From: Vulcanimicrobiota bacterium
Lineage (GTDB): Bacteria; Vulcanimicrobiota; Vulcanimicrobiia; Vulcanimicrobiales; Vulcanimicrobiaceae
DNA length: 40,227 nt
Direction: 5' to 3'
NCBI GenBank assembly: GCA_003136355.1
Contig: PLED01000002.1
Location: forward strand, 1 to 40,227
In this document: one piece after another, positions 4,094-9,611 of the stretch
How the letters are laid out: every line of letters begins with the position of its first letter
Position numbering within the stretch: position 1 is the stretch's first letter
Position numbers and translations under genes: made by a program
Notes under the pieces: model-generated
Seen by the model: the letters and a program-made list of their open reading frames with translations, nothing else
Databases searched by the model: none
What the model was told of the DNA's origin: nothing

Positions 4094-5101
4094 ATGTCTA
4101 TAACCCACATACACAGTTTTCTCGTGTCGCCCGGAAAGTCTGACGAAACACACTCAAAAGTTCCCGGAGCCACCGTCGGAATTGGCGAGGTTCCGATTCT
4201 GACGAAACTCTACAGAGACGTGCATGAAGAATGCAACATCGACATCGTCTTCGAGCCCACCGATGGCCGACAGGAGAACGCACGCCGCGACCTATTTTTG
4301 AAATACGCCGAGGCGCCAACGCTGGACCGAGGCTCCGCGATTGCGGGCGAACTGGAGGCCGTCACAACACACCGGTCCGGCATGGGGCTCCTCTTTCTCA
4401 TTGCCGGCGATGATAAGCGCAAGCGCCTCATCATGGCACGCTTCCCCGCCGATCAGGGCGTCGTCGCCGACCTCCTTGGTAAAGGAAAGATCAACATCGA
4501 ATTTCTGGAGCGCGTCTTCATGAAGAGCGCAAAGGCATACAAGTGCGTCGTCTACGGCGGACCGCTGACCGAAGGATCATTCTGGAAAGGCAAAGCTGTG
4601 GACAAGCAAATCGAAGGTCCTCGCGAGCTCTCCAACTACTGGATCGGGGACTTTCTGAAGTCCGTCTTCGCAACGAACGCAAAAGTGGGAACGAAGCGGC
4701 TCGCCCTGGCCCTCAGAAAAGCTCTACACGATGCAACCGATCTCGAAACGAAATCCCAACTGTTATCGACGGCCACATTATTGCGAGGCCGAGATGGAAC
4801 TGTCGTGTCGCCGGATCGCATCGCTCCGGAACTCCACCTGTCGGATCAAGCCAGCAACCTATTTAGAGCGAGCTTCCAGCGCCCCGAGCTTTTTTCCGAA
4901 TCCTTCCACTTCGACGTCGAAGAGTTCGACAAATTTGTGCCATACCGGTCCCTGGAATTGGATAACGGAGCGGTGCTGATCGCGGAGGATGAGCGGTTCG
5001 ATGAAATTTTCTCGAGGGAGGCGCTTCCTGATAGACCGGACGCATCTCGCTTTACGACGACAGGGCGAATCGTCAATGAAAACCTGCGACGAACAAAATG
5101 A
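4094..5101 (+). CDS. unknown 335-aa partner of a small alarmone synthetase
   Basis: I do not recognise a confident family. The protein is soluble, with no signal or membrane segment, and looks like a mixed alpha/beta N-terminal half followed by a helical C-terminal half. The block around residues 175-215 (NYWIGDFLKSVF, then a basic KRLALALRKAL helix) and the ending (LELDNGAVLIAEDERF, then GRIVNENLR) recall the layout of NdpA/YejK-type nucleoid-associated proteins, but this is only an impression. The stop overlaps the start of the RelA/SpoT-type synthetase by four bases, so the pair is co-translated. The position makes it a candidate antitoxin, sensor or regulator of that enzyme. Confidence 0.75.
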   Translation: MSITHIHSFLVSPGKSDETHSKVPGATVGIGEVPILTKLYRDVHEECNIDIVFEPTDGRQENARRDLFLKYAEAPTLDRGSAIAGELEAVTTHRSGMGLLFLIAGDDKRKRLIMARFPADQGVVADLLGKGKINIEFLERVFMKSAKAYKCVVYGGPLTEGSFWKGKAVDKQIEGPRELSNYWIGDFLKSVFATNAKVGTKRLALALRKALHDATDLETKSQLLSTATLLRGRDGTVVSPDRIAPELHLSDQASNLFRASFQRPELFSESFHFDVEEFDKFVPYRSLELDNGAVLIAEDERFDEIFSREALPDRPDASRFTTTGRIVNENLRRTK

Positions 5102-5709
5102 ACACCGAACTTCTAGCGGATTATGCGCGCCGATACGAATCAATCCTCAGGCCGATCGCCGAGCAGCTCGAAAGGTTCATCGTCGACCAGATGCAAGGCG
5201 AGTCGCGAATCGATCGCATAACCGCGCGTGCCAAAGATCCTGAACGCTTCATAAACAAAGCTTCAGCCGTCGGTGAGCAGGGGAAACCCCGCTATGAGAT
5301 GCCTCTTGTCCAAATTCAAGATCAGATCGCCGCTCGGATCGTTGTCCTGTACATTGACGACGTCAAACGGATTCAAAAGAGGATACTCGACTATTTCGTA
5401 CCCATCGAAGTGCGGACGATCGTCCCCGACTCTCATTGGGAATTCGGCTATTTCGGACAACACTACATCCTAACGTTGCCGCACGACGTCATTCCGCCGG
5501 CGATTGCTGTCGATGACGCCCCCTCGTTCTTCGAACTTCAGATCAAGACGCTGTTCCAGCATGCTTGGTCGGAAGCCAACCACGATCTCGGATACAAACC
5601 AACGCATTCGCTGAGCATTGAACAACAGCGGCTACTGGCCTATACATCGGCGCAAGCTTGGGGCGCCGACCGTGTATTCCAAGAACTCGTAACGGCAGAG
5701 CAGAATTAG
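5098..5709 (+). CDS. small alarmone synthetase, RelA/SpoT nucleotidyltransferase domain only
   Basis: At 203 aa this is a single-domain synthetase, with no HD hydrolase or regulatory domains. Key features are present: the basic RITARAKDPERFINK segment (residues 40-54), DQIAARI (75-81) at the position of the (p)ppGpp-synthetase D-hxGxR strand, a GYFGQHY G-loop tyrosine motif (117-123), and FELQIKTLFQHAWSEANHDL (145-164) holding the catalytic Glu146. The family transfers pyrophosphate from ATP to GDP/GTP or, in toxSAS toxins, to other acceptors such as tRNA. Its ATG overlaps the stop of the 335-aa gene. An isolated synthetase in a two-gene unit next to defence genes suggests a toxSAS-like growth-arrest effector; the acceptor cannot be told from sequence. 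Confidence 0.85.
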   Translation: MNTELLADYARRYESILRPIAEQLERFIVDQMQGESRIDRITARAKDPERFINKASAVGEQGKPRYEMPLVQIQDQIAARIVVLYIDDVKRIQKRILDYFVPIEVRTIVPDSHWEFGYFGQHYILTLPHDVIPPAIAVDDAPSFFELQIKTLFQHAWSEANHDLGYKPTHSLSIEQQRLLAYTSAQAWGADRVFQELVTAEQN

Positions 5710-5812: not shown

Positions 5813-7429
5813 GTGCAGGAAGTGAGGTTCTATCTGGATGCCGAGCCTAGGCGTTTTCCTATAATGCCTCCGGACGCGGGCGATGCATTCATTTTTCATC
5901 TGCAGGGCGATAAATGGAACGACTACGGATATGTTACGCTGTTTCACGCGACCCTATTTAAGGAAGGGCAGGAATACTCGCTCGGCGCCATTCGCATTCT
6001 AGTTGACGAGCAATCGTCCACGGCTGACGCGCTAAGGAACTTTACAGGATACGCAATCGCCGACTTCTTTGTCCGTACGAGCCAGCTTTTCGTATCACTC
6101 GGAAACAGCCTTAACTACTACCGGGCTCTCAAGAGCAACCTTCGTCCGCACCTCCGCGAATCTATCCTTCAAACAATGCACGATGCTGCCTATTTGCAAA
6201 TCCGGACTCCTCATAGTGCTTCGCTAGAGTTGCGGAACACAGAAGGCTTTAGGAAATCGTTGCTCCGCTCGCTTTCTGAGAAGCAGGCTTTTGAGGAGGC
6301 GGCACAAGTGATTTTCGGGCGCAAGAGGCGGCGAAATCGCAGTTTCGACATTAGCTACGACCTCCGCGGCGAACAGCCGCGTCAATCGCTCAACTTTGAC
6401 TTTTCCCCCTCGAGGAACTATCCGGCAAACATAAATCTCCTCATAGGTTCGAACGGAACCGGCAAAACCCAGGCACTAAAGTCCATAGTTGCCGCGATGA
6501 TTGATCGCGGCTTTTTATCTGAAAAGGAACAGCTTGCAGTTAGTGACCTAAATCCTCGAGTCACTTCTACAGGCGGTTTCAGCCATATCGTCGCTGTATC
6601 ATATACGCCTTTTGAAGACTTCCCGACGGCGCGGTCGTCCGTAGGCCTAGCGTCCGAACAATATCAGTATTGCGGCTTTCGTACCTTTGAAAACATTCGC
6701 GGTGAAAGCATACTTCAGGCGGCGCCGTCGCAGCTCGCCGAATTGCATAGATTGGATCAACAGTCCGTCATAAAAGGCGAGACGTCGCGTTTCGAAACAT
6801 TCATCTCCGCAATGAAAGACGGCTTGGATTTTGACGAATTATGGCTAACTATAGGTTCGTGGACGAGCGAGATTCTATGGAGCAAACGGGAACCGATCAT
6901 GCCTTCCCACATCGAATTCAGCGGCGAGAGCGCACTGACGTTTGCCCGAAAAGGTCAGGCCGTAAAACTTAGCGCTGGCCAGACAATTTTTGTGGGTTTA
7001 TTGTTGTCTATCTTGCGATACATCAAACAGAACGCCTTGCTCTTAGTAGACGAGCCAGAACTATATCTTCATGCAAATTTAGAGGTACAATTAATTACTA
7101 TTCTTCGCACGCTACTCCAGCGTTACAACGCGTTTGCCATAATAGCTACGCATTCGCCCATAATGGCGCGCGAAGTGCCACGACAACGAACGTGGATTCT
7201 AAGGCGCTCATCGGACGGTGCGATCAACGCCTATAGACCGCCATTTCAAACCTTCGGAGCTGACCTTACGCGAATCATAAACTATGTTTTTGACGATTTA
7301 TTGCTGACGCACCCATACGTGGCCTGGCTCCAAGAACGCCTGGTAGCCATCGGTTCGGTAGAAAACATTATCGATGACGACATGTCAATGGAGCTGAAGG
7401 TCCTACTGCGTTCCCTTAGGCGCGATTGA
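5813..7429 (+). CDS. AAA/ABC-type ATPase, PtuA-like (Septu-type defence)
   Basis: The 538-aa protein has Walker A GSNGTGKT (residues 212-219), an ABC-type signature LSAGQ (386-390), Walker B LLLVDEPE (409-416) with catalytic Glu414, and an H-loop ATHSP (445-449). This is the arrangement of SMC-like AAA15/21 ATPases in defence systems. About 200 residues of unrecognised sequence precede the ATPase. An HNH nuclease gene follows after two bases, the composition of Septu (PtuA plus PtuB). The start is probably GTG 5813; GTG 5822 is an alternative, and an in-frame stop lies at 5786-5788. The gap of about 100 bases after the alarmone synthetase leaves room for its own promoter, though a single operon is possible. 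Confidence 0.85.
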   Translation: MQEVRFYLDAEPRRFPIMPPDAGDAFIFHLQGDKWNDYGYVTLFHATLFKEGQEYSLGAIRILVDEQSSTADALRNFTGYAIADFFVRTSQLFVSLGNSLNYYRALKSNLRPHLRESILQTMHDAAYLQIRTPHSASLELRNTEGFRKSLLRSLSEKQAFEEAAQVIFGRKRRRNRSFDISYDLRGEQPRQSLNFDFSPSRNYPANINLLIGSNGTGKTQALKSIVAAMIDRGFLSEKEQLAVSDLNPRVTSTGGFSHIVAVSYTPFEDFPTARSSVGLASEQYQYCGFRTFENIRGESILQAAPSQLAELHRLDQQSVIKGETSRFETFISAMKDGLDFDELWLTIGSWTSEILWSKREPIMPSHIEFSGESALTFARKGQAVKLSAGQTIFVGLLLSILRYIKQNALLLVDEPELYLHANLEVQLITILRTLLQRYNAFAIIATHSPIMAREVPRQRTWILRRSSDGAINAYRPPFQTFGADLTRIINYVFDDLLLTHPYVAWLQERLVAIGSVENIIDDDMSMELKVLLRSLRRD

Positions 7430-7431
7430 AA

Positions 7432-8241
7432 ATGCGTTATCTTCAACTTGTAAACCACGATGATGCGAAGATGTACCGACACGTCGCATTCGCTACGGCG
7501 TTCACCTCCTATCGCAAGAACGAGGCGGCCGTGATCGCTAGATTCGCGGAATTTCAGGCGAGAATCGGCATGTTGCATTCTCTCGCAAAGGCCGGCCCGC
7601 CGTTGAACAAAGTCCAAGACAAGCTCCGAAACCTTTACGACTGTTCGATTCGAGAGGTGCTAGAGTTTAAAAACGCCATACGCCATCAGTTTGGCCCGGG
7701 ATGCCCATACTGTGGCGAAAATTGCACAACACCCGACATCGATCACTATCTGCCTAGGATTTCATATGCGGAATATAGCCTGTACTCGTGGAATCTTGTT
7801 CCATCCTGCACACAATGCAATCGAATCTTTTCAAGCAGTGTCGCAAAAGGCGCCGACTTTCTTTATCCTTTCGGCGACAAGTTCCTTAAGCAACGAGTAC
7901 TTGCCGTTCAATTCCAATGGATCGGCCAGGCCGAGTTCACGATCAACTTGAAAGGCCGCTCCAACCTTGGCCCGGCCGAACGCACAAGAATAGACCATCA
8001 CATCTCAATGTTGCGATTGTCTGAGCGGTTCGCCAATTACGCAATTTCGGAAATACTGAGTTTTCGAAGATTGGCACTGAAATCGGGTGACCTTGTGAAT
8101 TATCTAGGGCTGGAAGCAGCTAGACACATATCGGTACGTGGACCCAATAGCTGGCCATCGCTACTCTGTGACGCTTTGGCGTCAAACCAGGCCATGATCG
8201 CATGGCTAACACGCCAAGCTGAAGCGAGCGAGAATCCTTAA
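7432..8241 (+). CDS. HNH endonuclease, PtuB-like (Septu-type defence)
   Basis: A 269-aa protein with a central HNH/beta-beta-alpha metal nuclease motif: CPYC (residues 91-94), DIDHYLP (103-109) with the general-base His105, NLVPSC (121-126) and CTQCN (126-130). The two CxxC pairs form the usual structural zinc site. The flanks are helical and probably bind the ATPase. I chose ATG 7432, two bases after the ATPase stop, over an in-frame TTG at 7426 that overlaps it. In known Septu systems the ATPase restrains the nuclease until phage infection; here that is inferred from gene order and motifs. Confidence 0.85.
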   Translation: MRYLQLVNHDDAKMYRHVAFATAFTSYRKNEAAVIARFAEFQARIGMLHSLAKAGPPLNKVQDKLRNLYDCSIREVLEFKNAIRHQFGPGCPYCGENCTTPDIDHYLPRISYAEYSLYSWNLVPSCTQCNRIFSSSVAKGADFLYPFGDKFLKQRVLAVQFQWIGQAEFTINLKGRSNLGPAERTRIDHHISMLRLSERFANYAISEILSFRRLALKSGDLVNYLGLEAARHISVRGPNSWPSLLCDALASNQAMIAWLTRQAEASENP

Positions 8242-8691: not shown

Positions 8692-8808
8692 ATGATGGAA
8701 ACCATCTATGTTCTGGGCGGCTTGGCCGCACTCATTAGCGCTTGGCTAGTCGTAGGCGAGAAAAGCCTCGCACTCTACACTAAATACCGCGAGACGTTCA
8801 AAAAGTGA
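8692..8808 (+). CDS. 38-aa single-pass membrane peptide coupled to the next gene
   Basis: A short frame with two consecutive Met codons encodes one hydrophobic helix (residues 5-21, IYVLGGLAALISAWLVV) followed by a basic, aromatic tail ending in KK. Its TGA overlaps the GTG of the 268-aa gene in a GTGA junction, strong evidence that both are translated and function together. Topology suggests a single inner-membrane anchor with a cytoplasmic tail that could recruit the partner. No known family. Confidence 0.6.
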   Translation: MMETIYVLGGLAALISAWLVVGEKSLALYTKYRETFKK

Positions 8809-9611
8809 ACCGCAAGAAAGGCGTCGATAGCCAGGAACGAGCGCATCGCTTTCTATCTCAACACTACGTGGATCTCGAGTCATTCGCAAGAGAAGATTTT
8901 CGACTAGCAACCGGCTGGACGAAATCGACCTTTGACACATACTGGACTAAGCAATTTGAATCACTCCTAGAGGGCGCGGACGCAAGTACGTACCGGGTTA
9001 AAGGAAGTTTTGGACGCTACCTGAGCTTCCGGGAGTTTCAAAAGCATGTGACACAAGTCAAAGACGCCCGGACCGATTACCAAAAAATTGAATACAACGA
9101 CGTGCTGACCTATGAGTTCTACTTGCCTCTCGCTCACGAAAAAGCACTGCGCAGCACGCTCGACTCTCTCTTCTACGAAAATGCAGTACTGCCACGGCTC
9201 CGGCGCATCGATCAGCAGTCGCTCGAGAAAGACTTTCCACAAACGCAGCTATTTGGGGAAGGCAGCGTTCTCGACCGGGCAAAAGCCTACGTCGACAAAA
9301 AATTTCGCGGGTACTCCATCTATCATGTGAATGGACGCTTTCGCGGGGCGGATCTAATGCCGCTGTCAGAGGCCTCAAAGATATCCGCACAGGGCGAGCA
9401 TTACTTAATAGATGAGACGACAGCCGTTGTGAGGTTCATATTCCCATGCCGAAGTCACGACGAAGCCCGACTGACAAGGTTTCTGTTTCAAGAGCTATTC
9501 GTGCGCAGCATCATCGAGCTTGTTAGTGGCGAAGATGAAATCTGGATAATTGAAACAGAGGGAGGTCAGCGCGCTCATGTCTGGAGCGAAGCAGATTCCG
9601 AGACGAACTAG
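8805..9611 (+). CDS. unknown 268-aa protein with a possible N-terminal HTH-like segment
   Basis: Not recognised. Residues 27-54 (FAREDFRLATGW, then STFDTYWTKQF) look like a helix-turn-helix or winged-helix element; the next 60 residues are aromatic-rich, and the C-terminal 120 are mixed alpha/beta with an acidic end. No catalytic motif, signal or membrane segment is seen. The GTG start overlaps the stop of the 38-aa membrane peptide by four bases, so membrane recruitment is plausible. Placement directly after a Septu-like pair and before a methyltransferase/PLD-like pair suggests a further accessory or defence module. Confidence 0.7.
   Translation: MNRKKGVDSQERAHRFLSQHYVDLESFAREDFRLATGWTKSTFDTYWTKQFESLLEGADASTYRVKGSFGRYLSFREFQKHVTQVKDARTDYQKIEYNDVLTYEFYLPLAHEKALRSTLDSLFYENAVLPRLRRIDQQSLEKDFPQTQLFGEGSVLDRAKAYVDKKFRGYSIYHVNGRFRGADLMPLSEASKISAQGEHYLIDETTAVVRFIFPCRSHDEARLTRFLFQELFVRSIIELVSGEDEIWIIETEGGQRAHVWSEADSETN

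Follow-up and report, generated by a model that had tools for sequence, protein, structure and literature searches.

A winged-helix protein linked to D12-class restriction loci in Acidobacteriota, and its isolated copy behind a Septu-like gene pair in a Vulcanimicrobiota bacterium

The described systems closest to the locus studied here include wHTH-bearing HEPN proteins, type II restriction-modification (R-M) systems and Septu-like gene pairs. The available part of PMC3710099 lists DUF3644 as a HEPN family, describes the EC042_2821 HEPN family as fused to a wHTH and a REase domain and located in R-M operons, and proposes a guard model for HEPN proteins in such operons; a winged-helix head of this sort was noted there on HEPN-REase proteins in 2013. 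In our literature search, DUF3644 was mentioned in no other paper, and no paper was found on the C-terminal domain of P0002, the 268-aa protein that is the subject of this report. The wHTH-DUF3644 and EC042_2821 proteins (PF12358, PF18740) are like P0002 in bearing a winged helix at the same N-terminal position, and the wHTH of the article is probably of the P0002 type. Two wHTH-DUF3644 proteins (L047 and L061) are located beside D12 MTases, a further likeness, whereas P0002 is devoid of HEPN (DUF3644) and REase-like domains and carries another conserved domain instead. With type II R-M systems composed of a D12 MTase and a PDDEXK_11 nuclease (PF02086, PF20472), P0002 is connected through its relatives in Acidobacteriota and through a related MTase-nuclease pair in its host; unlike in such systems, P0002 in the window (the whole stretch of 40,227 nucleotides analysed) is unlinked to either gene, and the host pair lacks a P0002-like gene. 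Septu-like PtuA/PtuB systems and the PADLOC candidate PDC-M01 are brought close by position, as P0002 comes immediately after a PDC-M01A/B pair, but P0002 itself is neither an ATPase nor an HNH protein. The features of the locus, in window coordinates, are as follows.

5813..7429, + strand: PDC-M01A / PtuA-like AAA ATPase (PDC-M01A 1.6e-99, PtuA1 5.2e-58)
7426..8241, + strand: PDC-M01B-like HNH protein (PDC-M01B 7.1e-28; HNH 0.0051, below cut-off)
8692..8808, + strand: 38-aa ORF with one predicted membrane span (coding score, hydropathy)
8805..9611, + strand: P0002, 268 aa, winged helix and unnamed C-terminal domain (family alignment, model)
8814..9056, + strand: N-terminal winged helix, residues about 4-84 (21 alignment rows from other loci, model)
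9096..9560, + strand: C-terminal domain, residues about 98-252 (model, structure comparison)
9309..9344, + strand: conserved motif GYSIxHVxGRxR, residues 169-180 (family alignment)
9402..9446, + strand: conserved motif, YLxxETTAxxRFIFP-like, residues 200-214 (family alignment)
9528..9554, + strand: conserved motif GExxIWxxE, residues 242-250 (family alignment)

A defence neighbourhood had been proposed from the letters of the window, and for the upstream side this is a fair description, with the PDC-M01A/B-like pair directly upstream and a RelA/SpoT-domain protein before it. The latter (5098-5709) is coupled to an unknown 335-aa protein (4094-5101), both on the + strand; the pair gave a weak match to the PADLOC candidate PDC-S33 and is possibly a second two-gene defence or toxin unit. 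No MTase, PDDEXK_11 nuclease or P0006-like gene (P0006 being a small soluble protein discussed below) was found in the window. No PDC-M01 pair was noticed at a second P0002-like locus, among loci that are few and of which some were scanned.

The P0002 frame is coding by its codon score, which is 0.145 per codon where the other two frames reach -0.05 and -0.16. Searches of Pfam, PADLOC, NCBIfam and PHROGs returned sub-threshold matches only, in agreement with the sequence-only reading, in which the protein was assigned to no known family; that reading had also named membership in a known housekeeping family as an outcome that would speak against it, and with no match to any such family this membership is rejected. 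Placement of the C-terminal half among the HEPN/DUF3644 proteins was rejected as well, with no DUF3644 match in P0002 or three relatives. The REase-like domain (PF18740) was likewise unmatched in these four proteins, and in a cousin, L022, it appeared below cut-off only.

The N terminus had been described as HTH-like, and the structure prediction run as a check bears this out with a confident winged helix (residues 11-80, pLDDT about 88-97), whose motifs are TGWxxSTxxTYxxK and a closing HVTQ. We had presumed a resemblance of this N terminus to the start of DUF3644 proteins. Such proteins occur in 9 of 149 genomes of the host's phylum; one of them (L010) matched the P0002 N terminus with an E value of 0.00093 in a small sequence set, and identity between the P0002 winged helix and DUF3644-type proteins is about 17-35% over about 80 residues.

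The model as a whole (pLDDT 73, pTM 0.50) was built from a 23-row alignment, 21 rows of which cover the N terminus only, and the C-terminal half reaches pLDDT values of about 52-81; a single-sequence model (pLDDT 48.7) was too weak and was kept out of the fold searches. The C-terminal half is modelled in the order strand-helix-strand-strand-helix-strand with helical insertions, a ferredoxin-like arrangement, and the domain is probably ferredoxin-like. This fold is tentative and gives no function, because no Foldseek E value fell below 0.001 and Z was at most 7.1, a common level. PII-like proteins and SAM lyases (6zm9, 9gad, SbtB) share the strand and helix order of P0002 and rank high in the structural lists, with IclR regulators also among the best neighbours, but all of these matches are insignificant. 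Kinship with phage SAM lyases was considered but not accepted, the high structural rank being insignificant and without sequence support; for the residues Y58/E69/E105 of Svi3-3, as given in the available part of PMC7877911, no placement on P0002 was found. A BFVD search was topped by uncharacterised small phage proteins only (best E 3e-3). Eleven residues, H174, R178, R180, E204, T205, T206, E243, W247, E250, H258 and W260, are common to four sequences, and the conserved C-terminal residues look like a working site as judged from the alignment.

Direct homology searches with P0002 recovered 0 relatives in plasmids (72,556 records), phages (50,697 records), IMG/VR and genome_contigs; among 103 genomes of the host's order and 149 of its phylum, they returned the P0002 gene alone, in one genome each time. 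Plasmids, phages and IMG/VR searched with P0002 relatives or P0006 gave no match either. A first DNA motif scan of IMG/VR produced 8 matches, all due to chance, while a different motif in genome_contigs, a collection of species genomes, produced 45 stretches, which were sorted by eye into 28 true winged-helix loci with an open frame and 17 chance matches. One of these stretches, L035 from Colwellia psychrerythraea ND2E, encodes a protein 40-44% identical to P0002 and related to it across almost the full sequence; it is cut at a contig end, and its first residues and upstream side are missing. A profile search around Colwellia found relatives in 2/395 genomes and the same 2/394, one of them a 40-aa remnant only. 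Further relatives were found in 2/297 genomes of the phylum of G157, a record labelled Acidobacteria, in 2/119 genomes of the order of G943 and in 4/129 of the order of G1085, with one already known in each of the two orders. Six Acidobacteriota genomes in total carry P0002 relatives, at about 40% identity. The P0002 family is both rare and patchy, having been found in these six genomes and one Colwellia, and as a remnant in a relative of Colwellia. On a Haematobacter plasmid, a candidate nuclease relative coincided with an annotated gene of the opposite strand and was dropped.

At each of the six Acidobacteriota loci, the P0002-like gene has a D12 adenine MTase as its neighbour. A complete PDDEXK_11 nuclease (P0008-like), the second component, occurs in L089, L100 and L101, whereas L092 and L099 retain a remnant of it and L088 has none. 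A third protein, small and soluble (P0006-like), is encoded in L088 and L089, and L092 has a remnant of it. The two P0006-like genes, which belong to no family and follow the P0002-like gene (L088:7598-7918, - strand; L089:8783-9139, + strand), encode proteins that are 53% identical to each other. Only L088 holds an intact P0002-like gene: the copy in L089 is frameshifted, that in L092 has stop codons, those in L100 and L101 are cut short, and the G1319 copy is split by contig ends. As the L100 and L101 copies are shortened while the MTase and nuclease stay open, the P0002-like gene is dispensable.

A single D12 MTase is encoded by the host of P0002, on another contig (C48), and a PDDEXK_11 nuclease gene follows immediately. 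The MTase shares 54% and the nuclease 42% identity with its Acidobacteriota counterpart, and the region (L104:6901-8934) also includes a divergent HNH protein. Within the genus, the host nuclease is carried by 6 of 7 genomes, at 94-100% identity, and P0002 by 1 of 7, so the MTase-nuclease pair does without P0002. Since a host-type nuclease occurs at E below 1e-10 in 8 of 149 genomes of the phylum (two outside the genus), the presence of P0002 and the nuclease in one genome could be a matter of chance, about 1 in 19.

The copies in the Colwellia group have other neighbours. No D12 MTase was seen beside the P0002-like gene at the two loci of this group, and no match to an MTase or a PDDEXK_11 nuclease was obtained in the 12 kb analysed at the Colwellia copy, which adjoins a type II-A retron on one side and the contig end on the other. 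Each of the two gammaproteobacterial copies points towards a type II-A retron that lies a few dozen bases beyond the end of the gene. The two retrons (L083:9256-11189 and L082:6096-8308) differ, with RTs 32% and NDTs 35% identical (the latter over part of the NDT), while the 3' ends of the two P0002-like genes share 84% DNA identity over 94 bases. Because dissimilar retrons converge on similar 3' ends, these data suggest that the end of the P0002-like gene is an insertion hot spot for defence cargo and not a shared ancestral unit.

The winged helix is common to a variety of defence proteins. Pfam analysis of 10 chosen winged-helix proteins revealed DUF3644 in 5, an AAA ATPase in L031, a protein kinase in L037 and, below cut-off, a nucleoside deoxyribosyltransferase in L045; two short solo winged-helix proteins had no firm match. 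In L031:5455-6951 (- strand), from a Bacteroidetes MAG, the winged helix forms the N terminus of a PtuA-like ATPase, and the same 8 kb also encode a D12 MTase. In L037:5855-6946 (- strand), from an Acidobacteria MAG, it is the N-terminal part of a Ser/Thr protein kinase, and a D12 MTase is again encoded nearby. Solo winged helices stand directly beside a D12 MTase in L042 (79 aa) and L052 (90 aa), and in the L042 region (L042:5016-6122, - strand) the solo gene is positioned between the MTase and a protein that by eye is RelE/ParE-like. In L053:1821-2578 (+ strand), a solo winged-helix gene is followed by a 135-aa protein that, again by eye, resembles a PD-(D/E)XK nuclease. The surrounding DNA encodes a D12 MTase at 6 of the 28 winged-helix loci and at 0 of the 17 chance-pattern loci, a linkage that is suggestive only; the 28/17 split was made by eye.

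The 38-aa ORF upstream of P0002 had been read as a membrane peptide fused to it by a GTGA overlap. The coordinates, the lengths and the overlap itself are correct, with GTGA at 8805-8808 holding both the GTG start of P0002 (8805) and the TGA stop of the small ORF (8806-8808); what they describe is two overlapping genes rather than a fused protein. The ORF, which from an alternative start (ATG 8656) would be 50 aa long, is probably coding because it stands out among the 136 window ORFs of 33-45 aa, all of which score below its codon log-odds of 0.220 per codon and only 1 of which equals its hydrophobicity over 19 residues; its shortness weakens the coding test. The peptide matched no curated family (Pfam, PADLOC, NCBIfam, PHROGs; sub-threshold matches only). 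From this strongly hydrophobic, overlapping ORF the sequence-only reading had derived a membrane-acting effector and sensor unit, and a short membrane ORF was to be expected ahead of every homologue. In L088, L089, L092, L100 and L101, the five relatives whose start can be read, no such ORF was found upstream, and in L089, L100 and L101 the nuclease gene stops directly before the P0002-like start or in contact with it. At the other winged-helix loci, 3 of 26 are preceded by hydrophobic ORFs, and these are marginal, of 22-32 aa with GTG or TTG starts; moreover, the peptide had no match in the plasmid records. The ties of the family are to genes of DNA methylation and restriction and not to membranes; a family-wide membrane unit is largely refuted, and we regard such a unit as very improbable.

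We give about even weight to the view that P0002 is a soluble accessory DNA-binding protein of a restriction-type (D12-class) defence, present here as a stray copy. The winged helix, judging by the model, would bind DNA, either at the control region of the system or at unmethylated target sites, and the C-terminal domain would be the working part, which may pair with or control the small PD-(D/E)XK nuclease or, alternatively, may become active on its own when the winged helix signals foreign DNA. The gene in the window would then be a stray, mobile copy behind the PtuA/HNH-like pair, with the usual MTase and nuclease not adjacent, and might still work with the unlinked MTase-nuclease pair of the host. 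It is possible, if distinctly less probable, that P0002 is instead a stand-alone abortive-infection effector, in which the winged helix serves as a generic head for sensing or for targeting DNA, the restriction genes are merely guarded, and the place that DUF3644 (a HEPN RNase), the PtuA ATPase or the kinase has in cousins is taken by the C-terminal domain as a new toxin or enzyme. The interchangeable C-terminal partners of one N-terminal domain, the strictly conserved polar residues H174, R178, R180, E204, E243, E250 and H258, the copies beside retrons and the PtuA/HNH pair without an MTase, and the guard model proposed for HEPN proteins of R-M operons in the available part of PMC3710099 are all consistent with this; however, no known catalytic fold or family was recognised in P0002, and the winged-helix-only proteins L042 and L052 adjoin D12 MTases without any effector domain. 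These solo genes beside R-M genes would also fit a control protein, and the succession of winged helix and probable ferredoxin-like domain, whose best, insignificant structural neighbours are IclR regulators and ligand binders of the PII-like and SAM-lyase types, recalls ligand-binding transcription regulators of the Lrp/AsnC or IclR style, which might control the neighbouring defence genes. That P0002 is such a regulator seems unlikely, as the structural matches stay below the level of kinship and no regulator family was matched by sequence.

More tentatively, several of these observations can be joined in a single reading, wHTH-X, an undescribed modular class in which one winged-helix head, distributed over many phyla, would bring exchangeable tails (HEPN-REase, PtuA ATPase, protein kinase, NDT-like or none) to D12 R-M loci and to other defence islands. 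The tail of P0002 would represent a new type, a PII-like ferredoxin domain with a conserved site rich in H, R and E, that may act as an effector or as a small-molecule sensor, and a membrane tether was perhaps gained through the 38-aa peptide in the P0002 lineage alone.

A short coupled membrane ORF from one genome is, on this evidence, a poor sign of a membrane-acting system. If the accessory role in restriction is true, P0002 would be a third gene of D12/PDDEXK_11 restriction systems, with a job that is directly testable, and if the modular reading holds, the winged-helix head would be a general plug that gives restriction loci extra, swappable functions.
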